Of a DNA stretch of 57,509 nt, positions 19,292-50,611 are shown piece after piece (within the stretch, counting starts at the first letter, position 1; each line of letters begins with the position of its first letter). Below the pieces are notes generated by a model. The model searched no databases. It saw only the letters and a program-made list of their open reading frames with translations, and was not told where the DNA came from. The position numbers and the translations under genes are program-made. Where the stretch lies: IMG/VR virus record IMGVR_UViG_3300028840_002812, positions 1 to 57,509 of that record; one strand, given 5' to 3'. The DNA is from a virus.

Positions 19292-19522
19292 CTACCAATC
19301 AGGATATTCCCAACTAACCAACGTCAAATTATTCTTTCTACTTTGTGTAACTCTTTTTACTGTACACTCTTTACATTCATATGCGTATGATGACAATACT
19401 GGACCTCTATCTTTACGAGTTCTGTAAAAACCATCAATTAAATTTTTTGTTTCACTACATACTCTGCATTTTCTATCTGTTAGTAATAAATGTCCTAAGT
19501 TTATTTGTTTATCCAAATCCAT
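19292..19522 (-). CDS. Small zinc-ribbon-like protein (76 aa) after gp17
   Basis: I chose the ATG at 19522, which overlaps the gp17 stop codon by one base (TAATG); an ATG eight codons further up would lie inside gp17. The product contains CRVC (residues 29-32) and CKEC (about 54-57), a four-cysteine zinc-binding set, followed by basic residues and a C-terminal WEYPDW. The layout resembles the N-terminal zinc part of endonuclease VII-type HNH proteins without a nuclease core. It may be a stand-alone DNA-binding protein or the remnant of a homing gene. I recall similar small proteins between gp17 and gp18 in cyanophages. Confidence 0.65.
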   Translation of the reverse strand: MDLDKQINLGHLLLTDRKCRVCSETKNLIDGFYRTRKDRGPVLSSYAYECKECTVKRVTQSRKNNLTLVSWEYPDW

Positions 19523-20697
19523 TAATATTTCCACATATAATCCCATTCATTAGATCTATCACCATATTCGTCAAGATGCCACCTATCCCCATCTTTATCA
19601 ACAAAACTCGGTTCATCATGTAATCCATCATTTAAAAATCCAAATGGCGACATATCTTGTTCTATTTGATCTCTTTGATCTTCATATAATCTCTTACGAA
19701 CATCCTGATCAGTAAGTTCTTTGAAATAATCTTGTGCTACTAACCAAGCATAAATTACAAGACACATTGCCAGATCATCATTACAACCTTCTTCCGCTTC
19801 GAAGGAATTGTGTTTTTGTATGAAAGTTGTGAGCTCACTAATTATCTCATAATCATTAAGATATAGTTTATCTTCCTCAATCATCGTCTTGAGATTTAAG
19901 CAACCAATTTTTTTTACTGTTTTGGACATCTTAACTCCAAGTTGAGTTTTCTTTCCAGAAAATCCTTGACCAACTATTTGACCTGCTCTCCCTCTCATAG
20001 AGCACATAAGAAGATTATTATATTCTAAATCATATTGGAGAATTGATGCTACTTGATCTCCTACATCATTTACTTCACATAAGATGTATGCATCATTATA
20101 ACTTTTTGCTACATCGTAAATGACACTTGGAAATAACATTGGTTTAATTTCATTATTTCTATACTTCCCAACAACTTTATGGGGAAATTCGGTAATGTCT
20201 ACTACGGCAAACGCGGAGTAATCACTTCCTACGCCTCTAGCAACGTCTACAGTGATCAAATAGTCGTGTTCTTTGATTGGATCTACATAAACGTCTAAAC
20301 CCGCGCTACGGGTCTTAGGATGGTCATATACGAGAGTTCTAAGCTTGCTTGGGGCAATTAAAGTATCTACGGAACCTAAAAATTCGCAATTGTGTGAGAT
20401 AATATTATTTGAGTAATAAAGATTATCATCCCCAACATCAAGTAGATCATAAAGATATATTCCTTTTTCTACAATTTCATTATATGCAACTTTTTTTCCT
20501 TGTATAATGTCATCTACTTTTATTAAATCTGCCCTTATTTTTTCCACTCCAAAGGAATGTTTATCTGAACATTTTATTTCAGTGCCATCTTCAAAAATTA
20601 TTTGGTGATAAAATGGTTTATAGACTTTTTGAATTCCTGAAAAATATTTAAATCCCGTTGGAGTTTTTACTTGAAACTTTTTATTAAGTTTAAACAT
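19522..20697 (-). CDS. 17: gp17 large terminase, C-terminal half with split C-intein
   Basis: This 391-residue protein has two parts. Residues 1-103 are a C-intein ending in SHN, and the extein starts at Cys104 with CEFLGSVDTLIAPSKLRTL. Residues 104-391 are the C-terminal half of the T4-type large terminase, with the RNase H-fold nuclease motif TVDVARG carrying the first catalytic Asp. The missing N-terminal half (ATPase) is the separate gene at 21288-23156, which ends in the matching N-intein. After trans-splicing the halves would join at FE-CEFLG. The start overlaps the GIY-YIG gene by eight bases. Confidence 0.9.
   Translation of the reverse strand: MFKLNKKFQVKTPTGFKYFSGIQKVYKPFYHQIIFEDGTEIKCSDKHSFGVEKIRADLIKVDDIIQGKKVAYNEIVEKGIYLYDLLDVGDDNLYYSNNIISHNCEFLGSVDTLIAPSKLRTLVYDHPKTRSAGLDVYVDPIKEHDYLITVDVARGVGSDYSAFAVVDITEFPHKVVGKYRNNEIKPMLFPSVIYDVAKSYNDAYILCEVNDVGDQVASILQYDLEYNNLLMCSMRGRAGQIVGQGFSGKKTQLGVKMSKTVKKIGCLNLKTMIEEDKLYLNDYEIISELTTFIQKHNSFEAEEGCNDDLAMCLVIYAWLVAQDYFKELTDQDVRKRLYEDQRDQIEQDMSPFGFLNDGLHDEPSFVDKDGDRWHLDEYGDRSNEWDYMWKY
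20389..20697 (-). other. C-intein of a split intein (AceL-TerL type)
   Basis: A 103-residue C-intein at the start of the second gp17 gene. It begins MFKLNKKFQVKTPTGFKYFS and contains GIQKVYKPFYHQIIFEDGTEI, a CSDKHSFG block-B-like motif and a terminal YYSNNIISHN followed by Cys+1. Length, start and end match the AceL-TerL split intein as I remember it (N-part about 25, C-part about 104 residues, in a phage terminase). Confidence 0.85.
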
Positions 20698-21259
20698 TTT
20701 TCCAACACTCCCCCAAAATAATTTTTTTCATTCCCTGTGGAGTTATACTGTATTTGCCACAATATTCTTTACAAAATGATTGTATGTACGACATTTCTTT
20801 ACCATTTTTCATTATCAAACCAACATTATTCAAATGAGGCTTTTTTTCGTATAAATGTCTTATTTCTTTAATTTGATCATCAGTTATCTTTCTACTAAAA
20901 ACTCTACCTTTTCTTGTAGATTTCATTTTGTTGATTGTCTCTTCGGAAAAACAATTCTTAACATTTTTATTCCAAGGTATATTTCCTCTCTTTACTCCAC
21001 CAATACCACTTCTATCATAATTTTCAAATCCTTCTCCTCCCGTTGATTTATTCCATCCATTTCTATAAGTATTATATTTTTCTATATATCCTATTTCTAA
21101 ATTTTTTGCTTCCAATGCAACATGAATTTGCTCCACCAATTCGAAAGTATGAGGTGGTTTATTTCTCTTATGTTCTCTTTTTCTAGTATCTGGATTTTGA
21201 GTTTGTCCAATATACTGAATTTTGTTATTTAAATCTTTAAGAAAATATATATAATACAT
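20690..21259 (-). CDS. GIY-YIG homing endonuclease inside the fractured gp17
   Basis: A 189-residue protein with the GIY-YIG core at its N-terminus: YYIYFLKD (residues 2-9), YIGQT (16-20), a conserved Arg in TRKREHKR, and a Glu in IEKYNTYRNGWNKSTGGEG near 58-77. The C-terminal part is basic and holds repeated helix segments such as ITDDQIKEIRHLYE, which fit a modular DNA-binding region. It lies exactly between the two gp17 genes, 28 bases after the first and overlapping the second by eight bases. It presumably cuts intein-less gp17 alleles and so spreads the split arrangement. It has its own late promoter. Confidence 0.9.
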   Translation of the reverse strand: MYYIYFLKDLNNKIQYIGQTQNPDTRKREHKRNKPPHTFELVEQIHVALEAKNLEIGYIEKYNTYRNGWNKSTGGEGFENYDRSGIGGVKRGNIPWNKNVKNCFSEETINKMKSTRKGRVFSRKITDDQIKEIRHLYEKKPHLNNVGLIMKNGKEMSYIQSFCKEYCGKYSITPQGMKKIILGECWKNV

Positions 21260-21268
21260 TTTTATTAT

Positions 21269-21276
21269 TATTTATA
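21269..21276 (-). promoter_or_regulatory. T4-type late promoter box inside the gp17 break
   Basis: TATAAATA on the minus strand in the 28-base gap between the first gp17 gene and the GIY-YIG gene, 9 bases before the ATG at 21259. Spacing is short for a leader, so the transcript would have almost no untranslated region. It could also serve the second gp17 half. Confidence 0.6.
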
Positions 21277-21287
21277 ATCCAAGAAAT

Positions 21288-23156
21288 TCACATTCTATCA
21301 TATAAATCTTCCATAGATATTTTACTAATGCTTTCATTATCATCTTGTATTTCTATTAAAGTTTCGCCCCCCAAACATTCAAATTCGACCTTAAATTGCT
21401 GATCACTAGTATTTGCAATAGTTTGTTTTTTCCATTCTTCATCGCGTCCTGGAACTTCGCTCCAGTGAACATCAGTAAAGATATATTCATTTTTACCTTT
21501 TTCTGCATCGTGCCACATTCGGTAGAAATGATTCATACCGTGTGGAGTGGAAACTATAATAACTTTGGTATTCTTACCGGATGTAATCGTTGGATAAACT
21601 GACGCGAAGAATGAATCTGCAATATGATTGGGAACAAAAGCAAATTCGTCCAAAAATAAAATATTGAATGACATACCGCGAACTGCAGAAGCAGAAGTAG
21701 AAGCAGCTAAGATCTTACTTCCATTCTCCAATTCGAGAGATCCTTTATTCCAAGATATAATACCTTGTTGCATCCACTTTGGTAGATTTTCATACGCAGT
21801 CTGAAGTCTATCTAAAAGTTCTCTTGCAGTTGCTGCTTTGTTTGCGAGAATACCAATATTTACGTTATCGTTAAAAACTGCATAATGAAGTAAATATGCA
21901 ACAACAGTGGTTGAATTATGCGTCGGTATAAAGGTTTTTCCACATAAAAATAAATGATTATCACTATCGACTTGGATACAAGCAACTGGAACACTATCAA
22001 TTTTTTCTATTTTATGAATATAGTGCCTATCTTCCTGAGGTCTAATAGATCTTTGTGAGTCGCAAACATCAATTTTTCTTGGAAGATTGAAAACTTTATG
22101 TTTTGTCGTAAAAGATACTGTATGATAATAATTATCTTTTATTTTTTTATGCCTTATGTTTGATTTGATACCCAAACTTGACAATAATTCCACAAATTGT
22201 AATATAAACTCATAATTTTTTTGATAAAATTCATAAGATCTCGTATTTCTTTTTACAGATCCATCAGTATCCATTAATCCACGAAGAAGTTCCATTCGGT
22301 CATCAATTGATGATCTTAAATACTCTATTGGAATATGTTTATTTTTTAAAAGATTATATGATTTTAGATTTAAATATAAGTCTCTAACCTTAAATCTAAT
22401 ACAGTTATTAGTATCTCTTTCATATTCTACATCTATTTTTGTTTTGTAAAAATTAAAATCATCTTTATGTGATATTATTCTCCCATCTGCAGAATACCCA
22501 TCCCCCAACCAAACTCCCAAAAGATAGGGATCAATATTTAAATTATTTTTTGTAAATTTGACTGGTTTTGATTTGTGGACAAATAAAGAACCTTCAACAC
22601 CTTTTCCTCTTTTATTATTTGTTTTTGTTTTATAAATTTCGTAAATTTGTTTTGAAGTTATAACTTTTTTATTAGTTCTCCAATAAGAACTATCAACTTC
22701 CCATAGATGCTCGGCATCTGCAATTATTTCTTCGCCGTTATCAAAATATAATTTATAACAATCATGATTGTGCATGATCTCAGTTTTCATTGTTATTGAA
22801 ACATTATTGCCATCAGGAGAAAGAATAATATCTCCAACCTTAAGATCTCCCATTGTCGTCCAACCCTCTGGCGTTGGAATTGGAGTATCTAAGGATAAGG
22901 CTTTGCCCGTCTGCCTGGGCATCTTACAAATATTAAATCTGTGCTTATGGAAATTTTTAATTAATTTTTCTTGAAAATTGTAAGGTTGGAAGTTTTTTAA
23001 ACCATAATCAAGAGTAACAATTTTTACGTAATTTTTAGCAAAATAAACCGGATCATCCTGACATTTAACAAACTCAAGAATTTGTTCTTCAGTAAATTCA
23101 ATCGGCGTATTTGCCTTTTTTAAGAGCGGATTTCCTAAATAGACATCATTTGACAT
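21288..23156 (-). CDS. 17: gp17 large terminase, N-terminal half with two inteins
   Basis: A 622-residue protein. Residues 1-85 are the terminase N-terminus up to PRQTGK of Walker A. Residues 86-414 are a full intein. Residues 415-593 continue the ATPase (STTVVAYLLHYAVF, then the Walker B FLDEFAFVP and the coupling motif STPHGMNHFYRMW). Residues 594-622 are an N-intein starting CLGGETLIEI. The extein joins as PRQTGK-STTVV, an intact Walker A, when intein 1 is removed. With the second gene this predicts a mature protein of 85+179+288 = 552 residues. gp17 is the packaging motor and headful nuclease, so its activity depends on both splicing events. Confidence 0.92.
   Translation of the reverse strand: MSNDVYLGNPLLKKANTPIEFTEEQILEFVKCQDDPVYFAKNYVKIVTLDYGLKNFQPYNFQEKLIKNFHKHRFNICKMPRQTGKALSLDTPIPTPEGWTTMGDLKVGDIILSPDGNNVSITMKTEIMHNHDCYKLYFDNGEEIIADAEHLWEVDSSYWRTNKKVITSKQIYEIYKTKTNNKRGKGVEGSLFVHKSKPVKFTKNNLNIDPYLLGVWLGDGYSADGRIISHKDDFNFYKTKIDVEYERDTNNCIRFKVRDLYLNLKSYNLLKNKHIPIEYLRSSIDDRMELLRGLMDTDGSVKRNTRSYEFYQKNYEFILQFVELLSSLGIKSNIRHKKIKDNYYHTVSFTTKHKVFNLPRKIDVCDSQRSIRPQEDRHYIHKIEKIDSVPVACIQVDSDNHLFLCGKTFIPTHNSTTVVAYLLHYAVFNDNVNIGILANKAATARELLDRLQTAYENLPKWMQQGIISWNKGSLELENGSKILAASTSASAVRGMSFNILFLDEFAFVPNHIADSFFASVYPTITSGKNTKVIIVSTPHGMNHFYRMWHDAEKGKNEYIFTDVHWSEVPGRDEEWKKQTIANTSDQQFKVEFECLGGETLIEIQDDNESISKISMEDLYDRM
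21291..21377 (-). other. N-intein of a split intein (29 residues, atypically short)
   Basis: The last 29 residues of the first gp17 gene, from Cys594 (CLGGETLIEIQDD) to EDLYDRM and the stop. The start CLGGETLI is an intein block A. Natural split inteins usually have an N-part near 100 residues. A part this short is known from AceL-TerL, whose N-part also ends in an EDLYKR-like segment. Confidence 0.85.
21915..22901 (-). other. Intein with LAGLIDADG endonuclease in gp17 Walker A (class 3-like)
   Basis: A 329-residue in-frame intein, from Ala1 (ALSLDTPIPTPEGWTTMGDL) to THN, followed by Ser+1. The endonuclease motifs are LLGVWLGDG (127-135) and LLRGLMDTDG (205-214). There is no nucleophile at position 1. 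Instead Trp67 (EHLW, block B), Cys308 (VACIQVD, block F) and Thr327 (PTHN, block G) form the W-C-T set that defines class 3 inteins, which start splicing from the block F Cys. Confidence 0.88.
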
Positions 23157-23173
23157 AATAAACTCCTTTTATA

Positions 23174-25081
23174 TCAACAGTTCCAAGCTCTAAGTGATTT
23201 ATTAATTCTGGAATCCGGATCGTTTGCAGTTTTTGCTGAAGTTAATTTTTTCTTCATGCCTTTCATGCGAGCACAGAAAGAATTTCTGCGCGTTCCACCT
23301 TCTGGTTGAGGTCTTTTTAAATCACTGCCAGGATTCTCTCTTTCATAGGACTTACGACCCTTTTCATTTAAACCACCAGATTCCGACTTTCCTTCTTTCC
23401 TTTGCCAAGCAGCAACCTCTTCTATTTTTTCTTCTCCAATTGTTCGATTATTGAGAAGATAATTCTTTGATTTTGAATTTATGACTTGAATCAATGGCAT
23501 TCCTGGTCGAATATCCGAAACATTATATTGAAGAACTTGTGCCCCCGGATATACTTTTTGAATTTCGAAAGTCACATCTTTTCTGGATGGCATTCCTACT
23601 TGAGGAAAGAACATTCTAATAGAATATGTCTTTCCTCTCCAAGAAAGAATTGCTACAATAACATTACCAGTTTCTGACTGGAGACGAGTTGCCTCTTCAA
23701 TTTGAGATTTAAAACCTTTGATTGGTTCTGGTTGAATCAAATCAACAACCTCAGCAAAAGTATTACCCTCAGCATCTTCAATTGTTACATCCTCTGCTTT
23801 TACACACCTGTTATATTTTTTACCAAAAAGTTTTTGAGTTCCTTTCTTCTTATACCCAGGCCAACATTTCATTTCGTCCATAATTTTTTCAACTAACTTT
23901 TGTTCCACCATTTCACCACTTGTCACATAATCTGCAGCAGTGTCAATGTAATCCGCTGCCTTCGTGATCTTTGATTGAACCCACGCTTCTAAATCGCCTT
24001 CACCCTTACCGACCTTTTGTTCTAATCTCTTAAGTGCATTGTGAATGGTTTTTAATTCTGATCTTGCCATCGAGTACTCTTCATCCTTTACTGAAACTTT
24101 ATCCCATGCTTTTTCTCCATAGGAACATTGGGATCTTGTCTCTCTTTTGTTGCATAAAGGACAGTATCTTTCTTCTTCGTGCATAGTTGCCTCCGATTTA
24201 GTTCCCCATTTATCTGCACCAACTTTACGACATTTAACAAGTGCTCCTGATGCATATGCACTAGGCCAAACATCATAACGAGACTTTACTTTATGATAGC
24301 AAGCATCTTTTTTTCCAGACTTTTTCTTTTCTTGTAATTCCATCTCTTCGGTTCTTACATTGGTTGGTTTTGCTGAGTTATTTTTTTGTGGTTGATTTGG
24401 ATCTTTTCTATTCTTTCTTTCAAATGCTTCATCCTCTTCTTCTGGAGAAAGATTTGATGCCATTTTAGAACTTCCACATTTTGGGGTTGAAGTTTGTCCC
24501 GGTTGCCGTGCGCAAGGAGCACCAGCAAATGGACCTCCAAGTTGGCGCCATCCCTTTACATTTTTTCCAGTTTTGGGATCTGTTCCGCTAGATTTTTTGA
24601 ACCAATCGCGAAGACCTTCATCTCCGGATTTGGTTTCTTCTTTTAAATTTTTAATCCATTCATCTGGTGTTTTATCATGCTTCCTTACAAAAGAATTATG
24701 AAGTTGTTCAGCAGTCATATCATTTTTTTCCATAATATTGCGCATTAGATTATCAATTGATTGATAAGAAATATCACTTAATTTCTTAAGACCAATCTCC
24801 AGTTCTTTAGTAGCGTCTTCTTCACATCCACAGTGCTCTTTCACATCTTTAAATTTTTTATGATGTCTTTTAGCGTCTGCTTCCATCTTTTTCAAACGTG
24901 TATAATAATCTGGAATTTCATCAAGATGTTGAAGAGCAATATCCATTGCTAAATTGTGATCTTTTGTATGCTCATGTTCAATAGGTTCTCCCATATCAAG
25001 TTGCTTTTGTATGAAAGAAACATCCATTCGATGCTTCCTTGCAATTTGTTCAACCGTCTTATGAGATTTAAATTTATTCAT
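23174..25081 (-). CDS. 635-residue multi-module cysteine-rich protein between gp16 and gp17
   Basis: The N-terminal 70 residues (KTVEQIARKHRMDVSFIQKQ, then NLAMDIALQHLDEIPDYYTRL) resemble the family I know as DUF5661. Later modules are a GWRQLGGPFAGAPCARQPG segment near 180, CYHKVKSRYDVWPSAYASGA near 259, a CPLCNKRETRSQC zinc-like motif near 306, a KCWPGYKKKGTQKLFGKK module near 403, and a C-terminus from GGLNEKGRKSYEREN (about 567) to the end that recalls DUF6321. Each module carries paired cysteines and basic residues. In T4, genes 16 and 17 are adjacent; here this gene separates them by 1.9 kb. It could be a virion or packaging accessory protein. Function unknown. Confidence 0.8.
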   Translation of the reverse strand: MNKFKSHKTVEQIARKHRMDVSFIQKQLDMGEPIEHEHTKDHNLAMDIALQHLDEIPDYYTRLKKMEADAKRHHKKFKDVKEHCGCEEDATKELEIGLKKLSDISYQSIDNLMRNIMEKNDMTAEQLHNSFVRKHDKTPDEWIKNLKEETKSGDEGLRDWFKKSSGTDPKTGKNVKGWRQLGGPFAGAPCARQPGQTSTPKCGSSKMASNLSPEEEDEAFERKNRKDPNQPQKNNSAKPTNVRTEEMELQEKKKSGKKDACYHKVKSRYDVWPSAYASGALVKCRKVGADKWGTKSEATMHEEERYCPLCNKRETRSQCSYGEKAWDKVSVKDEEYSMARSELKTIHNALKRLEQKVGKGEGDLEAWVQSKITKAADYIDTAADYVTSGEMVEQKLVEKIMDEMKCWPGYKKKGTQKLFGKKYNRCVKAEDVTIEDAEGNTFAEVVDLIQPEPIKGFKSQIEEATRLQSETGNVIVAILSWRGKTYSIRMFFPQVGMPSRKDVTFEIQKVYPGAQVLQYNVSDIRPGMPLIQVINSKSKNYLLNNRTIGEEKIEEVAAWQRKEGKSESGGLNEKGRKSYERENPGSDLKRPQPEGGTRRNSFCARMKGMKKKLTSAKTANDPDSRINKSLRAWNC

Positions 25082-38602: not shown

Positions 38603-41600
38603 TTATGTGATATATGTTGAGAACTTTAGTGGATTAGTTCTTTTTAAAATTGTGCTAGTAGTTATCCCAGCAAATCCATTTAATGTATAGGAATTAAACT
38701 CTTTATTTTTTGTTCTACTACTTAACAGTATCCTGCCCCAACTATATTCTCCAAAGAAATTATTGGAATTAATTCCAATTAATGAATCGTGATTTTGCAC
38801 ACTTGTAGATACTCTGGTTACATACGTAATCCCAATACCAATAACTGTAGTTTGCGCTATTGATACTGAAGATGCTTGATAAACATTATCTATAAAGGTT
38901 GTACCTATTCCAACAATACCATTAAAATCTAATGAAGTTGTTGCTTCTCCGATATTTGAGTTATATACTACAAAATAATAACCGGTTTGTATTCCACTAA
39001 TTGTAGTGACTCCTGTTACAGAAGCGTCTCTTAAGAAAGAATTTTTTGGAATATAAAAATCAAATACTATTACTGTTGATGCAACGCCAATAGATCCTGT
39101 AGAAATTCCTACAATAGTTCCAAAATCACCTTCGTAAGACTCTACAGAGTTAACCTCTTTTGTTAAAGCTGGGGGTTCAATTAATATGATAGGGGAATTT
39201 GTGAATGTATACCCAACTCCGGGGTTAATAATATCAATTGATGACACATTTCCTGAAGTTATGGATGATATTGCGATTGCATTTATTGGAATTGTAGTTC
39301 CGATTCCAACTGAATTTTGAATTGTAACTACTGGTGGCGAGAGATAACCCTCTCCACCATCGACAATTTGAATAGATGCAATAGTACCCGCAACGGACAC
39401 TATTGCTGACGCAGCTGCGCCAACTTTAGATTCTTGTGAGATAAATGTTATTGAATTTTGGAATGATAGTGAAATATTATTTTCATTAATTTGATTAAAG
39501 AATGGTCTAATACTATCGACATAAACAATAGTAGACCCAACACCAACCGGTTGAATTAGATATGCAGTTGGATTGATTACCGAATTATACAAAATTCTAT
39601 CTTTCGCAATTTCTTGTTCGTTAATAATTCTATCCTCAGTTTGTCTACACCAAGTTACCGATCTTTCTAGATTTTCATCATCAGTATTTCCTGGTCCAAA
39701 ATACGGATTGGTATTCACATTATCAGTAGAATTAATACTCGTCACTGTACGTGCTTCTTCTTGTAGTGTTGGAGATTGGCCAGTAGAAGAATCGTATCCA
39801 ATTGTTAAATTATCTCCAACCTTTACAGTTTCTAATATGTTCACATCAATAACATCAACGTTTTTAGTTCCTCTGTAGAATAAAATCTTAGAAGTATCTC
39901 CAATTTTAGGTGGTTCTGTAAATTTAATTGAACTGCCCCCGTTAAAGAGGTAACTTTCTCCAGGAACCTGTAGAATATCATTGATGAATACTAATAAAGT
40001 ATCCTGAACGTTAATGCCCGAACCTTTTGAGGAGCGAATTGAAATTAAATTACCTGCAACGGTAAGTGGGAATCTAGATATCTTTCCGTTGAACTTATCA
40101 TTTAATTTATCGAGAACTTGAAGTTCTCCAATTGACCACCCAGCAAACTTATCGGAAGTTGTTTTTTGAATTGAAATTTGGAATTCTCTGAATGAAGATC
40201 CTGTGGTGGGAATTCCAATTACTCCCCCAACCGGAACTGTTAAAATTTGATCTTCACCGTACCCATATCCAGTATTAACAATTTCAAAATCAATAACGCT
40301 AGATCCCTGACCAACAACTATATTAATCTTTGCTCCAGTACCAACTCCAGAAGATGAAGAACTATAAACCAATGGGATGTTTGTATACGATAGTGGGTCA
40401 TCAAATATTACATAGGGTGGATTTGTAGAAGTGTATCCAGATCCAGGATTTGATATATCAATACTTACAACGTGTCCTCCACTTACAACAGCAGTTCCAA
40501 TAAATTCAATATTCGGAGTTTCTATAGATAATGATGTAACACCAACATTTACAACCTGTACTACTTCTCTATATCCAGAACCACTGTTCCCAACACTAAT
40601 AAAAGAAATAGTTCCTGCAACTGAAACAACTGCAGTTCCTCCAGCAGAAACTAAAGGTTGGTATCCAAATCCCTCAGTTGAACCAACAGAAACAATAATC
40701 CCACCGCGAGGAATACTTGCAGTATTTACATCATAAGAAACAGATTCTGCAGTTCCAGTAAAAGTAATTGATGTGATTCCCAAATATTCTGAGAGATTGT
40801 AGTCATTAGTTAATCCTGGACCTTGAAATATTTCGTTGACTAGAATTATTGCATTTTCATCTTCTATTCCTAAAACATCCGAACCATTTGAAGATAATCT
40901 AAAATCTTTCATAAATCCATCAAACTCTGACGAAATGTCGTCAAAAATATAATTTTTAGAATAAGTTTCTTCGGAAGAATTTGGAGTTCCAGATCTCGTA
41001 AAGGTTCTTCCTTGGAATGTAGACCTGGAGGATAGTCCTTCCCAATCCCTTTCATCTGGCATATTTGTAGTGCTACTCAATGGTATATTTCCATAAGGTG
41101 CAGTAACAAAATTAATCACATTATCTATAATATTGTAATTACCATTTATCTTTTTGATTAAAGATCCGGTAGAGTGCCCTACAAGAGAAGATCCCATCCA
41201 AGGTCTACGAACTTGGATTGCATTAGTACTTCCAATACCAATACTCTCAATTTTCATAATTTCTTCCCCAATTCTTATTAGATCACCACCAAAAAATGAG
41301 GTAATTCCAGTAAAATAGATTATATTATCTGTGGTGGCAACGTTAGTTGCTAAGGTGGATGTGATTTCTGTCGAAATAATTGGAGATTGAATTATATTAT
41401 CAATAGCAACAACTACTTTCGAATTTTGATTTGTAGATGTAAATCTGTGGGCAGAACCAATACCAACGCTAGTAATTGATAAAGTTTTTGGTGTTATTTT
41501 TAGAGCATCCTGAGCAGTTCTTGCTAGTTTAATTGTGTTCACATCAACCTTGACGATAAACACTTCATTCGGTAGTTTATCGGTTAATCCAATCCCAGCA

Positions 41601-44600
41601 AAACTAGTTGTAGCAATTCCGATAGATTGCTCCGATCCTTCAGCACCATTATCATATCTAACTAATTCCCCGCTTACAAAGAAGTGATTTGGGATTGTAA
41701 TAGAACTTGATGCAATACTAACTATCGAAGAATTTTCGCCAATAAAATATCTTTCGAAAATAGGAGCATTTTTATGAGTCAGATTAAAAGATCTCTTAAT
41801 ATCAGTTTCAGTTCCTTCGTATGATGCGTGATCTGTTTGAATTTCAGAGTTTATAAAACTAATTATATCCTTCTCATCATCTTGATTTCTTAAAGCATTG
41901 AGATAAATTTTTACATTTACATCAATGTCCGGAAGTGGTGTAAATGTAATAATTACTGCTGAAGATGACTTATATGCCCCAACAGTGCCCAATCCAGATA
42001 AAGTATTTAAAATTCCATATTCAGTAATGTAAACACCATTGTCATTATCGACAGCAGCAACTTCAGAAATTTGATGTATATTATTTGTATTATCGGAAAC
42101 TTGGATTACTAAATATGCCCCATCATAAAGATCAGGATATTCGCAAATTTCTATTGGAATCGGGGCAGATGTTGATGCAATAGAAACAGATCTACCTTGT
42201 AACAATGCGTGTTTCATTTCATAAGTACCAATACCAACAGATAACGTACTTCCAAACAACACACTGATTGTATTGATAGTCACTGCAATTCCAACATTTG
42301 ATATGAAATCAACATTCAATTGAGCGTCAGAAATATATGAATAATAAGTTCCCAACCCAGAATATGAGAAAGAATCTGTGGAGTGATTTGTTAGTTGCCC
42401 ATATTCCAATAGTTCTACATTTATCCCATCGTGAATTAATGTTAGTTCATCAAATTCATATTTTCCATTTTCAGCAGCAATAGAAACTAAAACTTTTGCT
42501 GCCCTATAAGTTGTTGCAATACCAACAATAGTAGTTGATCCGGAGGAAACGGAAACGCTACTGGATTGGATATTAACAACTTCACCAAAAGAGGTGTTTC
42601 CTATAGAAGAAAGAACGTCATTAATATTATAAGATAATGACGTGATATAAAAATCATTAATAGCAAACTTAATTGGATAAAAACGAAGAATTCCCTCTGA
42701 ACCATCAATCGAAAGATCAAATGACCCCATATCATAAGTACTTTCAACTCTTGCATATTGATTAAGATAAGTATTTCCTAAATCATCTATTAATGTGGTA
42801 ATAACTAAAAGTTGTCTTTCATTAAAAAATCTTTTGTCGGTTACATATGTGATATATTTTTGGGATCTGACATCCGTAAGATTAAATCTATGAACTTCTG
42901 CGTATCTTGTTGGTCTTGGATTGCTGTTAAACTCTGAACTTATATCATCAATAGAAAGAACTCTATTTCCTATAGATTCTGAATAATCAGTTAAAATTTT
43001 ATTGGAAAAAATAATTTCATCGGAAAGTATTTTATTTCCAATTTGTAGCGCATTCTCTCTTACTAAATCAAAGTCATAAACGCAATTAAGATTTACTACT
43101 CCAATAAGATCAGATACAACTTCTATTGATGCAAATCCGATAGAAGTTGTATCTATCCCAACAGTCGATTCTAATTGATAATCAGAAAACTTTTTAAATC
43201 CTGATGTGTGGTTCAATGTACTAACCACATCATTCCAAGTATCGAAATCAACTCTAGATTTCAGCGAATATGAGAAGTTTTGGTAATAAAAACTATCTTG
43301 AATTCTTTGGATATTATCATTTAAAAATCCTGCCGAAGATTGCCATCCATTCTCAAATCTCGAAGATGAACCGAGATTTATAAATGCCTCAAATGCAGAA
43401 ACTGAAGATGCAATACCTTGAGTTCTTGATGATGATCCTTTAACTAAATCTCCAACTTTAAAATTATCTTTAGATATTATACTTACAAGATTGATTTTTT
43501 GATCCCAAGATTCAACTGTCCCAATTGAAGAATCTGAAATAACAGTTTCTCCGATGATATAATCATTTTTTTTAAGTGAAATTTTAAAGGTTGGAAAATA
43601 TTTTTCCGGAATAATTCTTCCAGAAGAATTAGTTGGTTCAAACTCTCCTGGAAATTCTGCATCATTTAAAAATTCGCTTAGGTTATAAGTTACAGATCCA
43701 ATGCCACCAATATTTGAATCTACTGAAGTAATTGTGAATAACTGATAATTATAATCCTCAGAATTAAATCCACTTCCTGATGCTACTATTCCAATATTTT
43801 CAACTAAAACTTTATCATTAACTGCGAATGGGAATGCACTTACCGTACTAAAACCAACTGATAAAGTTACGAACACATCTTTCGTAATATCATTAAATTC
43901 TACATTTGAAATTCCTACACCATTGGAATTTTGTGTTGGTAAAATTGTAGGTGTTATAGGATTTAATGCAAAAGTATTTTCTAGTATTTCTACTTTATTG
44001 TCTCCTAAAGTAAATTTCAAATCCGCTTCGGGGATAACTTGGTTAGTTTTGCCATCCAATACTAAAAGTTTTGGAGCAGTTGTATATCCTCTACCGAATG
44101 AAGTTACTTCAACAGAATCTAGAGAAGAAAGAGGATCGATTTTTAGTATTTGTGGAATTGATACACTAGGTTTTAATGTGAAATCTGCGGGGAAATTAAA
44201 TCCAATATTGTTGATTCTTGTCTTTTTAATTTTCCCAATAGAAGTACTAGATGCTTCAAGTATTGCATTTTTTCCTTCTAATGAATTTACTAAGGAAATT
44301 TTTGGTAAAGAATAGTAGTTTTGACCTTTGTTTACTATTTTTGTTTTGGATATAGATCCTGTAATAAATCGTGAAGTTGTTTCGTAAGTAATTTTAGAAG
44401 AATATGAATTGTAGGAGTTATTTTCCGGAATAAATGGAATATTATACGTAAATGAAGTTCCTGAAGTGGAAATTACGTTATATACTCCATTATATCTACT
44501 AAATTGCACATTAATTTGATTGTTTCCAACAACTTCAGTATCAATGTTAATCAATCTCTTAGATTCTGGAAGATTGCTATCATATACGGGAACTAAGGTA

Positions 44601-47600
44601 TAGTATAGATTTTCTGGTGTTTTTTCATTTATAGTTAAAATAACTCTAGCATCACTTGTAATTCCTACAGAACCTATTTTTTGAACTTCAAATACAGAAT
44701 CTTCTTCATTATTAATATAAGGTTCTGTAAAATTAGCATCCTTGAAAAATTTTAAATCAAATCCACTATAAGCAGATGATTGCCTTACATACCCTAAAGA
44801 TGAATCCGAAACATCAAACACCAATGTCGAATTTTTATATGCATTTATTTGTGAGTTTATCTTTGTTAAAGTTCCTGATGATGCACTATGAATACTTACA
44901 ACTTCTGGATTTGAATTAAGTGAGTCGTAATAACTATTAGTTAATTTGACGGTATTTTCGTCTACAATAAAAATATAATATTCTTTATTATTTTGAAGAC
45001 CATTTGAGGGTAAAGATGAAGTATAAACTATCTTTTGCCCAGATCTAAATCCGTGGTCATTAATAGAAATAGTATTATTGGTAGTATTAACGTCAGATGT
45101 CTCAAAGTCTTTAGGATCTACTAATGTCTTTCTATTGAAATCATTATATTTTAAAACTACTGTAGTTGCAATTGAAGGATTTACTGTAATAAAAACAGTT
45201 TCATTATTTAAAAGACCGTGAGATTGTGCAGTTGAAACAGTCACTTCATTTTTAAATATATTGCCTGCTAATACCTCATATGTTGTTTTTAAACTATGAT
45301 ATTCTCCGGAACCAAAATCAGTAAAATAAAGTAAACCATAAGTGTTAGTAGCACTTGTTAATCCAACAAAAGTTCCTCCAGTTCCAAGACCAACTATAAA
45401 TGTGGAAATACCAATTAAATCATCGGTTAGTTTAGCAACATAAAGTATAGATTGATCATTCAGAACCAATGAATTTGATATTCCATTTGTAGATACACCG
45501 ATTGGAGAACCGCCATTGAACGAGTAAATTAACTTATCCCCAGTTTGTAATCTGTGATTTGGGATGTAAATTGATCTTGTTGGTATGAAAATTTCAGTAA
45601 GTCCAGCACCTGGATTGGAGAATACTATTGTAGAACCAATACCAATTCCTACCATAGTTCCCAATCCGACAGAATCAATTGGATTGAAATATAGTTCACG
45701 GTTAACTTTATAATTATATTGTGTTGTTATACGACTATTAATTGTTAATTTTCTGGGAATTTCATATAAAACTTCAGTAACACTATATGCAAACCCAACA
45801 GTTCCATCAACTTCCCTTAAAACTCTAATTCTGGAAGATCTTTGGTCAACATTTAAAACTTTAACTCTTTCAGTACCTATCCCCAAGATATCATTTTCTC
45901 GAATATTTGGGTAATTTAAATTACCTGCAACTGAAAAATAAGTAACAATTCCAGTTACGGAAGTACTACCGATTCCTGAGGTAAGTGCAATTGTATTTGT
46001 GGATACGCCTATCCTATAAGATCCTTCAATTGAAGAAGATGTTGTATTAAAACCAGCGATAGATATTAGTTCTACATTCTGCAAATTATGCGGATTTGGG
46101 GAAAATAATAAAAAGTCACCTCGGTTTCCACTGGGATAAAATTCAACATTAAAAATTGATGTTGATGCAACACTAATAGAATTCACAGGTTTACCAAAAA
46201 TTCTTTCAACTTCTGCTGATGCATTGAATCCATCTGTCCCTTCATCATCAAAAGCAAGTTGATCCCCAATTCTATAATCAGATCCGCCAAAAATAATATC
46301 AATTTTTTCAATAGATCCTGGAGAAGCAAATTTGATATCTATTGATTGTTCTAATTCATTCGGAAGTTCTAAGTATGAATATGAATTTTTCCCTTCAGTT
46401 AAATTGTAAGGAGTAGTGTTTCTAGACCAATTAGTTTGATTTAAATCAATAGTATCTTGATTAGATGATTTGGTAAAATTAAATTGATTAGGTCTTGATT
46501 TAAATCTATTTCCAATAAGGAAAGGAAATACTGGTTTCTTATAACCAGAAAAAGTACCAGAAGTTTCTGCATCCAAATTACTAATTGTTGCAAAATATGC
46601 ATAAGTTCCATTTGGAAATTCCGGTGTTATACAAAATCTTCCATTGTATTGATCGAGAACCGATTGATCCGAAACATTAAAATGTGTATAGTCTTCAATA
46701 AAAAATCCTAAAGGAAAACTAGATACTGGTGGTCTATTTGACTTTGGAGATTCATCTTCCCTATATCCAGACTTCATTTGAACAGCATCTCCACCCTGAA
46801 TAGAAGAATAACCATAAGGTCCATAAATTGGATTTCCGTCGTATGCCCATCCTATGATGGGGGAGTGGTCAATTGAAGTAATCTCTCCATTTGAACCTTT
46901 TCTTAAGTCTTTTCTTCCATATAAAATATTACCATCTTGATCATTCGCATAAACAATTTCTCTAAGTTTTCTTGGGACATAAAGATGAGCATATTCCAAC
47001 TCGTATTCTTCATTAAGTCCTTCTGCTAATATACCATCATCATCTGCGATTAATGATAAGGATTTTTGAAATAGATTTACATTCCAAGTTTGAATCTTCG
47101 CAACAAATTCTGCTAAGGATCCTGCAGGAGTAATTAATATTGTGGTGTTATTTGGTAAGTATCCAATACCAGATTCTATAACTTTGATTTTGGTTAATCT
47201 CCCATTTTCAATAATTGGTGTGAGAACGGCACCAATACCATCACCAATAATTTCTAAATTTGGAGCTGAGTTATAATCTCTACCTGAAGTATTAATTAAA
47301 ACTTCTACAATTCTTCCATTCGAGATAATAGGTGTGACTTGGGCACCAAATCCACTATTCAATCTAAATGATGGTTGCCTATTATAATTTAAAATTTGAG
47401 AAGCACCATATCCAACACCACCCGATTCTAGATGAACTGAAGTAATTTCGCCTCTGAATATGGGTTGGACGATTGCTTTAAATTGTACTGCACCACTAAC
47501 ATTACCAATGACCTCTACCGAAATTTCTGGATAATTAAAAGTGTGAATTCCGGAACCGATGGAAGTAAAGTCAATAAACTGCTTTGTACTAAAGAAAAAG

Positions 47601-50600
47601 TCTTTGGGTTGTGTTCCAGATCCTGTTTGAGATAATTTAAAATTGTTGTCATCGACCACATTTACATAATATTCATTGTTATTGGTCAATCCGCCAATTT
47701 CATTTCCACTTGATAAATATTTTACAATTTCTCCAGTTTTAAAATCATGATTTAAAATATTAATCTGATTGATGGATGTGTTTATTCCGGATATGGTACT
47801 AGATACTGTTCTTTTTTTATTTTCATATCCAAATCCAGAATTTTCAACATTAATTGAACCGATTACTGATTTTTTATTGAATGATGTCAATGCGTGATTA
47901 CCAATACCAAAAGATGTTAATTGTATTGTATTAATTCCAGCAACTGCATCGTCTAATGTATTATGAAGTTTAATAAGTATTGGAGATTGGACCGCAACAT
48001 AATACGAAGAGTCTGTAGATATCCCGCCAACACTTTTTTGTCCATTTGTTTTGTAGATTATTCTTTCCGCATTTCTAAACTTATGAAATGTAGTAAATCC
48101 TATAGAATTATTTGTAATAGATACTTGGGCAGCATTAATTTCAGAATTGAACTGAGATTCGTGATCTACTAGTTTCATATTTGCAAAAGCATTTGCACCT
48201 ATGCCGTTTCCTCCAGTAATTTTAATAACGGGTGTTTCGGCATAATCAAAACCTGGATCAATAATTCTAATTTCATTCAAAGAACCCTTTACTGCACAGA
48301 ATGCAGATGAACCAGAACCGATTGGGTCAACAATGGATAAAATTGGTGGATGGATAATATCATAACCAGTTCCTTGAGCAACAACATCCACTTCATTTAA
48401 TTTTCCAGAATAAACCGTATCCTTTGATTTATAATTTAAAATTTCAACCCCATTAATCAAAATGCCGATAAACCCTGGTTCTGTATCATAAATTCCTCCG
48501 TCATTTGAAGGCAAAGAAATTTCTCTTAAGAGTTTTTGTGAATTTAAAGTTTTATCTTTAAAATTAAAAAGTTCAATTTTATTTGAAGTTACTGTAATGG
48601 GAGTATCTGTATAAACTGAAACAAATTTTGATTTATATTTGATGGGATCAGACAAAGCAAGGTAAATATCTGCTCTACTTAAGGCAAATTTGACTGTTGT
48701 TTCGTTTACTCTATGGATATAATAAATTCCCTCGTCAAATACTTTACTTAGTATTTTATTTCCCGATTTCTGGGGAGTGTAATAAATTGCATCTCCGGTA
48801 TAAAAACCATGATCACGTAACCGACTATCTAAATCTATAATAGTAAATTCATCGGAATTAAAGGTTCCTTTGAATATTATTTCCCTAGAAGTAATTTCGA
48901 GATCTTGGCTATCATAATATGGTAGTGAAGACGATGCGACTAAAAGTTTATTTTTATCCTTATATACATTTTGAATATTTGCACTAATGACTGATGTACT
49001 TGAAAATGTAGATGAATTAACTTTTGGTATATTACGGATTACGGTATAAGTATCAGTTGTTGATAAAATTCCCTGTTCTCCGATAATAAAGGATTTCTCG
49101 GAAATTACATCAAATATGACAGATTCTACCTCTATTCCAGCACTATTTTTAATTCTGAGAGTATCACCTATTCTAAAAATGTGATTTGAAGATGTATTAA
49201 TTCTATATGTACTACTCGAACTATCTACCAATAAAATTGATTCTACTTTATAATTTGTAGGTGCATTAAAAAACCAATTATTAGAAATGGAATCTTTTGG
49301 GTTTACTCCCAAAGTTTTGATTTTAGACTCATACCCTTTCTTCAAATAAAATGTGTCGCTTACGATATCGAAATCTTTTAATACCGAAGTAATTCTGACT
49401 TTAATTATTTCGTTTTGATTAATAAAAGAATTTCCATATGCAAACACGTTAAGACTTATTGAAGAAGAATCTTCAATTATTCCTACCATATTTGAACATC
49501 CAAAAAATTGAGTAATGTTTTTAGATGTGTAAAATACTATCCCTTCAGACCCATCATTGTAGATTACTGAAAGTTCTCCGCTTTCTGGAAATCCTATTGT
49601 TGAATCAACATCGATTGATGTTGAATTTGGAGCATATTTGCCAATTACTTTTGTTTGCGGATGGATTTTAAATTCTCCATATATCGCACCATCAACTCTA
49701 ATATCTCTGTCATAATTTGCATCAATACTTAATTTATAATATTCTTTACCATCTTTAGATATAATTTTTTCAACTTTAGTAATAGGTGCATATGCACTAG
49801 TAAATCCAACATATTCTTTTTGGTATAATGTAGAATTTTCTAGATTTTCAGGATTTCCCTCAATACGTTCTACTACAAAATCTCTTGTAATTTGAAATTG
49901 TGCGTCTGATGGTCTAAAAAGATAATCTCTTGGTTTGATTATGCTTACATTCTCTCCATATAAAGATTTAAACAATATTTCAAAAGATTGATCTGTACCT
50001 TTACTGCGATAAAAATCTTTTGATTGTTTAATGAATAGTGATTGATTTAAATCTTCTATTAAATTTCTATTTTCAAATCCTGGTATTAATTGATGTTTAA
50101 TTTTTAATAAAAATTCTTTTAAAAATAAAGAACTTAAATTTGTGATTGTAGATCCGACAAAGTGATCAGAAGATGTGGTTTTTGAAAATACTAATTGTTC
50201 TGAATCGGTGGGAGATATGTAAGAACTAATGCCACTAAATCCTCTTATGCATCCGACAAAAGAATCAAATGTTTTTCCCGTATAAGTGATGATTTCTTCA
50301 TCGATTCTTATGAGACCATACTTTTCAGGAAATCCTTGAGTTCCAGAAGTGGATTTAGAAATATCTACAAAAATGGTATCATCAAATGAAGAAATGTCGT
50401 GCAATAAAACAACATAATCAATCTGATCAGTTACATTATCTACCTTAATATAATTATCAATATTTTGAATTAAATCGATAGGAGCTCCCTGAAACTCTTG
50501 AGATATGTAATATTGTGATAAAAATTCAGATATTAATGGAAACTCTTCTGTAACGTAAGAAGGAAGTTGATTTTTAACAATATTGTTAAATTGGATTCTT

Positions 50601-50611
50601 TTCTCTGGCAT
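38603..50611 (-). CDS. 7: Giant gp7-like baseplate wedge protein (4002 aa)
   Basis: A 4002-residue protein in the T4 gp7 position between gp6 and gp8. Residues near 220 (SKDFYRSKGTDQSFEILFKS) match the C-terminal part of T4 gp7 as I recall it (YDFYSTKGIEASYKFLFKV). T4 gp7 has 1032 residues, so this is a core with very large additions. After about residue 500 it is built of repeats: GxGY..P Gly-rich modules (near 750, 1080, 3330, 3730) and HGF.tG..v.Y modules (near 600, 955, 1683, 1852, 2973). A YHYH-type segment (GWAYDGNPIYGPYGY) lies near 1254. No stop or frameshift interrupts the 12 kb frame. It should form the wedge and a large peripheral structure. Confidence 0.85.
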   Translation of the reverse strand: MPEKRIQFNNIVKNQLPSYVTEEFPLISEFLSQYYISQEFQGAPIDLIQNIDNYIKVDNVTDQIDYVVLLHDISSFDDTIFVDISKSTSGTQGFPEKYGLIRIDEEIITYTGKTFDSFVGCIRGFSGISSYISPTDSEQLVFSKTTSSDHFVGSTITNLSSLFLKEFLLKIKHQLIPGFENRNLIEDLNQSLFIKQSKDFYRSKGTDQSFEILFKSLYGENVSIIKPRDYLFRPSDAQFQITRDFVVERIEGNPENLENSTLYQKEYVGFTSAYAPITKVEKIISKDGKEYYKLSIDANYDRDIRVDGAIYGEFKIHPQTKVIGKYAPNSTSIDVDSTIGFPESGELSVIYNDGSEGIVFYTSKNITQFFGCSNMVGIIEDSSSISLNVFAYGNSFINQNEIIKVRITSVLKDFDIVSDTFYLKKGYESKIKTLGVNPKDSISNNWFFNAPTNYKVESILLVDSSSSTYRINTSSNHIFRIGDTLRIKNSAGIEVESVIFDVISEKSFIIGEQGILSTTDTYTVIRNIPKVNSSTFSSTSVISANIQNVYKDKNKLLVASSSLPYYDSQDLEITSREIIFKGTFNSDEFTIIDLDSRLRDHGFYTGDAIYYTPQKSGNKILSKVFDEGIYYIHRVNETTVKFALSRADIYLALSDPIKYKSKFVSVYTDTPITVTSNKIELFNFKDKTLNSQKLLREISLPSNDGGIYDTEPGFIGILINGVEILNYKSKDTVYSGKLNEVDVVAQGTGYDIIHPPILSIVDPIGSGSSAFCAVKGSLNEIRIIDPGFDYAETPVIKITGGNGIGANAFANMKLVDHESQFNSEINAAQVSITNNSIGFTTFHKFRNAERIIYKTNGQKSVGGISTDSSYYVAVQSPILIKLHNTLDDAVAGINTIQLTSFGIGNHALTSFNKKSVIGSINVENSGFGYENKKRTVSSTISGINTSINQINILNHDFKTGEIVKYLSSGNEIGGLTNNNEYYVNVVDDNNFKLSQTGSGTQPKDFFFSTKQFIDFTSIGSGIHTFNYPEISVEVIGNVSGAVQFKAIVQPIFRGEITSVHLESGGVGYGASQILNYNRQPSFRLNSGFGAQVTPIISNGRIVEVLINTSGRDYNSAPNLEIIGDGIGAVLTPIIENGRLTKIKVIESGIGYLPNNTTILITPAGSLAEFVAKIQTWNVNLFQKSLSLIADDDGILAEGLNEEYELEYAHLYVPRKLREIVYANDQDGNILYGRKDLRKGSNGEITSIDHSPIIGWAYDGNPIYGPYGYSSIQGGDAVQMKSGYREDESPKSNRPPVSSFPLGFFIEDYTHFNVSDQSVLDQYNGRFCITPEFPNGTYAYFATISNLDAETSGTFSGYKKPVFPFLIGNRFKSRPNQFNFTKSSNQDTIDLNQTNWSRNTTPYNLTEGKNSYSYLELPNELEQSIDIKFASPGSIEKIDIIFGGSDYRIGDQLAFDDEGTDGFNASAEVERIFGKPVNSISVASTSIFNVEFYPSGNRGDFLLFSPNPHNLQNVELISIAGFNTTSSSIEGSYRIGVSTNTIALTSGIGSTSVTGIVTYFSVAGNLNYPNIRENDILGIGTERVKVLNVDQRSSRIRVLREVDGTVGFAYSVTEVLYEIPRKLTINSRITTQYNYKVNRELYFNPIDSVGLGTMVGIGIGSTIVFSNPGAGLTEIFIPTRSIYIPNHRLQTGDKLIYSFNGGSPIGVSTNGISNSLVLNDQSILYVAKLTDDLIGISTFIVGLGTGGTFVGLTSATNTYGLLYFTDFGSGEYHSLKTTYEVLAGNIFKNEVTVSTAQSHGLLNNETVFITVNPSIATTVVLKYNDFNRKTLVDPKDFETSDVNTTNNTISINDHGFRSGQKIVYTSSLPSNGLQNNKEYYIFIVDENTVKLTNSYYDSLNSNPEVVSIHSASSGTLTKINSQINAYKNSTLVFDVSDSSLGYVRQSSAYSGFDLKFFKDANFTEPYINNEEDSVFEVQKIGSVGITSDARVILTINEKTPENLYYTLVPVYDSNLPESKRLINIDTEVVGNNQINVQFSRYNGVYNVISTSGTSFTYNIPFIPENNSYNSYSSKITYETTSRFITGSISKTKIVNKGQNYYSLPKISLVNSLEGKNAILEASSTSIGKIKKTRINNIGFNFPADFTLKPSVSIPQILKIDPLSSLDSVEVTSFGRGYTTAPKLLVLDGKTNQVIPEADLKFTLGDNKVEILENTFALNPITPTILPTQNSNGVGISNVEFNDITKDVFVTLSVGFSTVSAFPFAVNDKVLVENIGIVASGSGFNSEDYNYQLFTITSVDSNIGGIGSVTYNLSEFLNDAEFPGEFEPTNSSGRIIPEKYFPTFKISLKKNDYIIGETVISDSSIGTVESWDQKINLVSIISKDNFKVGDLVKGSSSRTQGIASSVSAFEAFINLGSSSRFENGWQSSAGFLNDNIQRIQDSFYYQNFSYSLKSRVDFDTWNDVVSTLNHTSGFKKFSDYQLESTVGIDTTSIGFASIEVVSDLIGVVNLNCVYDFDLVRENALQIGNKILSDEIIFSNKILTDYSESIGNRVLSIDDISSEFNSNPRPTRYAEVHRFNLTDVRSQKYITYVTDKRFFNERQLLVITTLIDDLGNTYLNQYARVESTYDMGSFDLSIDGSEGILRFYPIKFAINDFYITSLSYNINDVLSSIGNTSFGEVVNIQSSSVSVSSGSTTIVGIATTYRAAKVLVSIAAENGKYEFDELTLIHDGINVELLEYGQLTNHSTDSFSYSGLGTYYSYISDAQLNVDFISNVGIAVTINTISVLFGSTLSVGIGTYEMKHALLQGRSVSIASTSAPIPIEICEYPDLYDGAYLVIQVSDNTNNIHQISEVAAVDNDNGVYITEYGILNTLSGLGTVGAYKSSSAVIITFTPLPDIDVNVKIYLNALRNQDDEKDIISFINSEIQTDHASYEGTETDIKRSFNLTHKNAPIFERYFIGENSSIVSIASSSITIPNHFFVSGELVRYDNGAEGSEQSIGIATTSFAGIGLTDKLPNEVFIVKVDVNTIKLARTAQDALKITPKTLSITSVGIGSAHRFTSTNQNSKVVVAIDNIIQSPIISTEITSTLATNVATTDNIIYFTGITSFFGGDLIRIGEEIMKIESIGIGSTNAIQVRRPWMGSSLVGHSTGSLIKKINGNYNIIDNVINFVTAPYGNIPLSSTTNMPDERDWEGLSSRSTFQGRTFTRSGTPNSSEETYSKNYIFDDISSEFDGFMKDFRLSSNGSDVLGIEDENAIILVNEIFQGPGLTNDYNLSEYLGITSITFTGTAESVSYDVNTASIPRGGIIVSVGSTEGFGYQPLVSAGGTAVVSVAGTISFISVGNSGSGYREVVQVVNVGVTSLSIETPNIEFIGTAVVSGGHVVSIDISNPGSGYTSTNPPYVIFDDPLSYTNIPLVYSSSSSGVGTGAKINIVVGQGSSVIDFEIVNTGYGYGEDQILTVPVGGVIGIPTTGSSFREFQISIQKTTSDKFAGWSIGELQVLDKLNDKFNGKISRFPLTVAGNLISIRSSKGSGINVQDTLLVFINDILQVPGESYLFNGGSSIKFTEPPKIGDTSKILFYRGTKNVDVIDVNILETVKVGDNLTIGYDSSTGQSPTLQEEARTVTSINSTDNVNTNPYFGPGNTDDENLERSVTWCRQTEDRIINEQEIAKDRILYNSVINPTAYLIQPVGVGSTIVYVDSIRPFFNQINENNISLSFQNSITFISQESKVGAAASAIVSVAGTIASIQIVDGGEGYLSPPVVTIQNSVGIGTTIPINAIAISSITSGNVSSIDIINPGVGYTFTNSPIILIEPPALTKEVNSVESYEGDFGTIVGISTGSIGVASTVIVFDFYIPKNSFLRDASVTGVTTISGIQTGYYFVVYNSNIGEATTSLDFNGIVGIGTTFIDNVYQASSVSIAQTTVIGIGITYVTRVSTSVQNHDSLIGINSNNFFGEYSWGRILLSSRTKNKEFNSYTLNGFAGITTSTILKRTNPLKFSTYIT

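Follow-up and report, generated by a model that had tools for sequence, protein, structure and literature searches.

A cyanophage large terminase gene interrupted by a class 3 cis intein and by a split-intein cassette with an operator-like copy of its insertion site

The gene for the large terminase (TerL, the gp17 of T4-type phages) of an uncultured cyanobacterial virus with a T4-type genome is interrupted by two inteins, one in cis and one split, and the break at the split intein holds a GIY-YIG homing endonuclease gene behind a late promoter with a copy of the insertion site beside it. The locus lies on IMG/VR record IMGVR_UViG_3300028840_002812, a possibly incomplete 57.5-kb stretch, the whole of which is called the window below. 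The best explanation, which we consider probable, is that this cyanophage gene was invaded twice and that the second invader is a homing cassette whose promoter is autorepressed in the manner of I-TevI. The first invader would be a class 3 LAGLIDADG cis intein lodged between the Lys and Ser of the P-loop, where its presence means that the ATPase should be dead until the intein excises itself. The second would be a cassette of about 989 bp, made up of N-intein, late promoter with operator, GIY-YIG endonuclease and C-intein, placed between Glu and Cys (...VEFE|CEFLG...); it would have split the gene in two, leaving an AceL/Cat-type class 1 split intein to join the halves in trans. Homing would follow when the enzyme cuts a terL that lacks the intein and the cassette is copied into it during repair. 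The same enzyme would bind a copy of the C-extein half of its target abutting the late promoter and so repress its own expression, and the C-half of the terminase would be supplied through stop/start coupling from read-through mRNA and from the internal late promoter. The anatomy of the locus, the families of both inteins, the recent transfer of the cassette, and the conservation and position of the copy, the promoter and the overlap are established by the sequences.

Anatomy of the split terminase gene

The original prediction had described the terL frame as divided between genes of 622 and 391 residues, and both open reading frames (ORFs) were found as described; with a 189-residue ORF between them they make up the terL region, all three on the minus strand. 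The features are as follows.

21288..23156 (-), terL gene 1, 622 residues: extein N1, cis intein, extein N2 and N-intein (ORF and partition)
22902..23156 (-), extein N1, residues 1-85, ending in the P-loop ...PRQTGK (T4 gp17 alignment)
21915..22901 (-), cis intein, gene 1 residues 86-414, 329 residues, with a LAGLIDADG endonuclease domain (class 3 signature)
21378..21914 (-), extein N2, residues 415-593, Terminase_6N, with the Walker B motif ILFLDEFAF, ending ...FKVEFE (Pfam, T4 gp17 alignment)
21291..21377 (-), N-intein, gene 1 residues 594-622, 29 residues, Cys1, after FKVEFE (AceL/Cat-TerL type)
21277..21292 (-), 16-bp copy of the C-extein start, TGTGAATTTCTTGGAT, a proposed autorepressor operator (conservation and matrix scan)
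21269..21276 (-), T4/cyanophage-type late promoter, TATAAATA, directly 5' of the endonuclease ORF (motif)
20690..21259 (-), GIY-YIG homing endonuclease gene in the terL break, 189 residues (Pfam, predicted structure)
20690..20697 (-), 8-nucleotide overlap ATGTTTAA of the C-intein start codon and the endonuclease stop codon (sequence)
19522..20697 (-), terL gene 2, 391 residues: C-intein and C-extein (ORF and partition)
20389..20697 (-), C-intein, gene 2 residues 1-103, ending ...IISHN before Cys+1 (CEFLGS) (Cat intein alignment)
19522..20388 (-), C-extein, Terminase_6C (RNase H-like nuclease domain), starting CEFLGS (Pfam, T4 gp17 alignment)

The predicted partition into a 329-residue intein, a 29-residue N-intein, a 103-residue C-intein and about 552 residues of joined exteins proved exact to the residue. 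The T4-type assignment also stands, as residues 5 to 495 of the 552-residue joined exteins align to T4 gp17 (3ezk, E = 2.3e-101; 3cpe, E = 6.8e-100), and the protein has the ATPase with its P-loop and Walker B motif, the RNase H-like nuclease, and the Terminase_6N and Terminase_6C matches of a T4 gp17-type large terminase. The C-extein is intact and 77-82% identical to cyanophage isolates, and unsplit TerL homologues exist. Neither the window nor any of six related contigs, one of them 188 kb long, yielded a second TerL, and the likeliest reading of the sequence is still that a complete motor needs both inteins to be removed, as had been proposed.

The cis intein is inserted between PRQTGK and STTVVA, so that the next extein residue is Ser. 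It begins with Ala1 and thus lacks a nucleophile at position 1, and it carries the WCT triplet that, with this lack, marks class 3 inteins (PMC7891396), the W in ...AEHLWEV, the C in ...PVACIQV and the T in ...PTHN. Both of its splicing ends align to class 3 DnaB inteins (6bs8, 6rix). By these features it is a class 3 intein with LAGLIDADG motifs, and it is predicted to splice by the class 3 route through its block F cysteine. Intein sites in the P-loop of terminases are classic (PMC5050341).

The split intein aligns to the two chains of the Cat intein (C-part, 6dsl_B, E = 2.9e-50; N-part, 6dsl_A, E = 6.5e-5), in keeping with the relationship to AceL-TerL that had been suggested for it. It starts CLGGET... 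and ends ...IISHN|CEFLGS, which supplies the nucleophile at position 1, the His-Asn pair and the Cys+1 of a class 1 intein. With its two genes, its very short N-part and the homology of both parts to Cat, it is assigned to the AceL/GOS/Cat-TerL type, class 1.

A copy of the insertion site at a late promoter

The original prediction had not listed the GIY-YIG ORF that fills the break, the late promoter of this gene or the insertion-site copy beside that promoter. Gene 1 ends after the N-intein with TGA (21288-21290). Past the last N-intein codon the order is TGTGAATTTCTTGGAT, then TATAAATA, then nine bases, then the endonuclease ATG, and the first 15 bases of TGTGAATTTCTTGGAT, in a shifted frame, encode C-E-F-L-G, the start of the C-extein. 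The late promoter motif of T4 is TATAAATA and that of cyanophages NATAAATA (PMC2984593).

Related loci were gathered from IMG/VR by a C-intein search (60), an endonuclease search (80) and a DNA pattern (91 contigs). The motif TATAAATA stands 8-21 nucleotides 5' of the endonuclease ATG in 104 of the 106 endonuclease loci with enough upstream sequence, and the other two have one-base variants. Across 31 nonredundant loci the 16-mer is conserved at 1.69 bits per position, compared with 1.14 for the N-intein codons next to it, and most of its variation falls at synonymous positions of CEFLG. When a matrix of the 16-mer was run over about 14,000 16-mers per contig in 120 intein-free terL contigs, which are mutually related and were fetched by a junction-peptide pattern, the exact insertion junction ranked first in 117 and second in 3; column-permuted matrices reached the top three in none of 200 trials on one contig. 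The similarity of the copy to the junction spans -3 to +15 and then stops, so only the C-extein half has been copied. The exact 24-mer of this region was found only between N-intein and endonuclease in all 173 locus records, which include overlapping records of the 91 contigs. The 16-mer is absent from 95 other TATAAATA sites in 0.95 Mb and from the other four in the window, and on the evidence of those 95 sites a generic late-promoter motif was rejected as its source. Loci without the endonuclease are also without promoter and copy, the operator being absent next to the intein in all five endonuclease-less split loci and in a re-fused locus.

The I-TevI operator is identical to the homing site at 15 of 20 positions, lies over the enzyme's own late promoter, and is cut about 100-fold less (PMC2988022). 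The layout in the window is of this kind, with a sequence like the homing site beside a late promoter that precedes the ORF of the enzyme. Because no more than the C-extein half of the target is present in the copy, the enzyme could bind it without cutting; by analogy, it most likely does so and represses its own promoter, as I-TevI does.

Downstream, the C-intein ATG lies at -8 and overlaps the endonuclease stop codon in all 28 nonredundant loci examined as well as in the window, and a GGAG-like stretch is usually found about 12 nucleotides upstream of this ATG. The overlap leads one to expect that translation of the C-half is coupled to that of the endonuclease; this is probably how the C-half is made, both on read-through mRNA and on transcripts from the internal late promoter. 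We suggest tentatively, and as the less likely case, that the autorepressed promoter of a selfish endonuclease and the overlap together set the amount of the terminase C-half and so tune the supply of packaging motors. A T4-like RNA hairpin hiding the endonuclease start was considered and rejected, as its signal in four loci was weak and inconsistent (z of -0.5, -3.1, +2.1 and -0.3).

The endonuclease and its cassette

The 189-residue ORF matches the GIY-YIG Pfam family (E = 2.6e-7, 31.3 bits against a cut-off of 22.6), and a GIY-YIG domain is present in all 29 of its relatives, 16 of which also have a NUMOD3 motif in the linker. A CHASE9 Pfam match fell below the cut-off and was set aside as spurious. 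The predicted structure has the order of I-TevI, namely a GIY-YIG domain, a poorly ordered linker and C-terminal helices, and its top structural match is the I-TevI catalytic domain (1ln0, probability 1.00, E = 0.05). A profile of the enzyme gave nothing significant against PDB sequences. By domain and fold the ORF is a GIY-YIG homing endonuclease, and it is predicted to cleave intein-free terL. A search of phage records returned no match to the enzyme, meaning that no isolate in that collection carries it.

The break has the form of a fractured gene, in which an endonuclease ORF lies between two half genes that each bear one half of an intein, and intact homologues exist. N-intein, endonuclease and C-intein together form the cassette of about 989 bp. 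Two loci (L030 and L039) are 99.8% identical in the endonuclease and 100% in the C-intein, whereas the flanking extein DNA is about 78% identical up to both junctions; in 60-nucleotide bins the identity falls to about 0.80-0.85 at either junction. A near-identical cassette between differing flanks indicates that N-intein, endonuclease and C-intein move together, and the pattern points to recent transfer with little co-conversion of the flanks. A weaker form of it is seen between the window and L003, with 80% identity in the exteins against 93% in the cassette.

Weighing the explanations

Several points weigh against two invasions and an autorepressed homing cassette. Relatedness among the 120 intein-free alleles means that the match of the operator to the junction is one similarity event seen repeatedly. 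The copy is degenerate, agreeing with its carrier's own extein at 11-13 of 16 positions (by eye) and with the commonest intein-free sequence at up to 15 of 16. In the structural comparison the C-terminal domain of the predicted enzyme matched no solved DNA-binding fold, and the linker in the model is of low confidence. The promoter and operator layout was not seen in the split TerL of the phages PD112 and VP-1, described below. Both splicing reactions, the DNA cleavage, the repression and the coupling are, moreover, deduced from sequence.

The CEFLG copy might instead be a relic of the endonuclease's entry into the gene and not a working operator, which would leave anatomy and splicing unchanged. 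This copy encodes C-E-F-L-G in another frame at the very end of the N-intein, which is what the leftover of a duplicated target would give. However, the copy is more conserved than the adjoining coding DNA, it is retained in L043, whose enzyme is only 48% identical, it keeps a constant spacing from the promoter while the distance to the N-intein stop varies (L007, L043), and it is lost together with the enzyme, all of which makes a relic unlikely. There is a slim chance that the conserved block is an upstream element for late transcription that resembles the homing site by accident. It does adjoin TATAAATA in 104 of 106 endonuclease-bearing loci, but it is missing from the 95 other promoter sites and from the window's other four, and in intein-free terL contigs nothing matches it better than the insertion junction itself.

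Proteins in pieces that work unligated are known, as in the mobE-split NrdA of phage Aeh1 that is mentioned, as a cited case, in PMC10448857 and PMC3322345, and TerL could by the same token act as two noncovalent halves with weak or absent trans-splicing. We hold this to be highly improbable: the splicing residues Cys1 and SHN/Cys+1 are kept across dozens of split-intein loci, Cat, which is the consensus of the AceL/GOS-TerL family, splices fast (PMC11766414), and the P-loop would still contain the cis intein. An assembly artefact, or a decayed terL with an intact copy elsewhere in the genome, could be imagined for a 57.5-kb record that may be incomplete. Against this, the same architecture occurs in many independent contigs, there is one TerL only in the six related contigs, that of 188 kb included, and the exteins are intact with the C-extein close to cyanophage isolates, so that this account has next to no probability. 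Misassembly as such is very unlikely, since dozens of contigs, drawn from many different metagenomes, show the same architecture.

Relatives and stages of decay

Nine of the 74 distinct loci with a readable P-loop site, the window among them, combine a class-3-type cis intein, a split intein and a GIY-YIG gene; the other eight are L002, L005, L008, L098, L111, L129, L171 and L190. The original prediction had suggested that the combination was undescribed, which is not supported in view of these eight loci, an equivalent in the deposited genome of Vibrio phage VP-1 and a 2012 report on the TerL of Campylobacter phage vB_CcoM-IBB_35 (PMC3322345). What is new is the mobile cassette, the operator-like copy at the late promoter, the start/stop overlap and the stages of endonuclease loss.

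Other loci vary the theme. L049-L051 have a P-loop cis intein that begins with Gln and is 44% identical, together with a GOS-type split intein with Ser1. Two split inteins, one of them at the P-loop, divide TerL into three genes in four loci (L016, L048, L155 and L161). In L161 (985-5070), which is complete, the three genes encode 124, 323 and 393 residues. The P-loop break of L161 and of L155 contains a DUF559/Vsr-like nuclease ORF, and a GIY-YIG ORF fills their other break. In L048 the second break is without GIY-YIG. In L016 (2782-4410) the P-loop break is down to a 90-residue remnant of the Vsr-like nuclease, which makes this a cassette in decay next to a GIY-YIG cassette that is intact. 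L059 (1706-5463) has a P-loop split intein and another break before Walker B (...GGSFN|CVMMDEFA), at which the N-intein is apparently fused in frame to a GIY-YIG endonuclease.

Loci L006, L024 and L029/L031/L034 are still split but have no endonuclease, and in L029 the ATG of the C-part follows the N-intein stop by a few nucleotides. L038 (3330-3707) has one continuous mini-intein of 126 residues and its closest relatives are split; its near-identity to the split L026-L039 group suggests that it is likely a re-fusion and not ancestral.

Among cultured phages, the gp17 of Escherichia phage PD112 (L227, 115-2706), of the T4 group, is interrupted at YIDE|CAF, where a TnsA-like nuclease ORF lies between the two parts; the split carries no intein annotation, and this E. 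coli phage can be worked with in laboratory strains. In Vibrio phage VP-1 (L224, 3900-4142) the annotated start of the second terL gene (4142) falls inside the C-intein, whose frame opens further upstream, within the end of the first gene. In Campylobacter phage CP39 (L226, 3998-5326) the TerL C-part begins with a C-intein beside gp13; no N-part was found in the fetched 8.3-kb stretch, so that a large distance may separate the two halves in this genome.

Source contig and neighbouring genes

The window has T4-type head, tail and baseplate genes, its DNA matches solely cyanophage records and marine single-cell virus records, and two related contigs carry a Photo_RC gene (psbA/psbD-type). An 84-residue ORF (19292-19546, minus strand) overlaps the 3' end of terL and matches PHROG 4723, endonuclease VII-like (E = 3.8e-36); in L155 and L161, too, a small ORF resembling it lies 3' of terL. 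A 635-residue ORF (23174-25081, minus strand; phrog_727, function unassigned) stands between the small terminase gene and terL, and the baseplate gene region includes an ORF of 4002 residues (38603-50611, minus strand).

Significance

If the operator is real, autorepression through a homing-site copy would not be peculiar to the group I introns of T4 and would be common to split-intein cassettes. This would be a sign that the control of homing enzymes in essential genes has converged. The family of loci displays life stages of a split intein, with the endonuclease present, lost from a gene that is still split, and gone from a re-fused one. Together with the TerL genes in three pieces, these stages are natural material on how genes become split and cease to be. 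In the cultured split-TerL phages PD112 and VP-1, whether packaging depends on trans-splicing can be tested directly.

Comparison with known systems

The TerL of Vibrio phage VP-1 (MH363700) likewise combines a P-loop cis intein with a GIY-YIG endonuclease and a split intein, the latter at the homologous position (...EYD|CSFLGS). It differs in that its P-loop intein is a class 1 mini-intein with Cys1 and its GIY-YIG domain forms an in-frame fusion with the N-intein, and neither a separate late promoter nor an operator copy was seen. In Campylobacter phage vB_CcoM-IBB_35, TerL was reported in 2012 to have an intein and an 'intron' enclosing a homing endonuclease (PMC3322345), and the TerL of Campylobacter phage CP21 appears to carry three inteins; like the window, both have more than one splicing element in terL, but at other insertion sites.

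Class 3 inteins of DnaB and of mycobacteriophage terminases (P-loop site TerL1-a) share Ala1, the WCT triplet, the insertion at the P-loop Lys|Ser/Thr and LAGLIDADG with the cis intein of the window; the window differs by adding a split intein downstream. Synechococcus phage B23 has the same cis intein in a TerL that is otherwise unsplit.

The AceL-, GOS- and Cat-TerL inteins have N-parts of 25, 37 and 30 residues, compared with 29 in the window, and they share with it the TerL host and a C-part of about 103-115 residues. Cys1 and Cys+1 are as in AceL and Cat, and the related loci L048-L053 have the 37-residue Ser1 N-part and 115-residue C-part of GOS-TerL. In contrast to these inteins, the one in the window is seen on a 57.5-kb phage contig, with a GIY-YIG gene, a promoter and an operator copy in the break and with another intein in that TerL. 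Fractured genes (Dassa et al. 2009, as described in PMC10448857, PMC6892783 and PMC7891396) likewise have an endonuclease ORF in the break and split-intein halves on the exteins, and AceL NrdHF has a GIY-YIG ORF there too (PMC7891396). The texts consulted make no mention of an operator copy with a late promoter or of a second, mechanistically different intein.

The enzyme of the window has no detectable sequence similarity to I-TevI beyond the catalytic fold, and it is embedded in a split intein where I-TevI is embedded in a group I intron. I-TevI, from the td intron of T4, is nonetheless also a GIY-YIG enzyme with a homing-site-like operator over a T4 late promoter before its ORF (PMC2988022), the layout that is known here from sequence.

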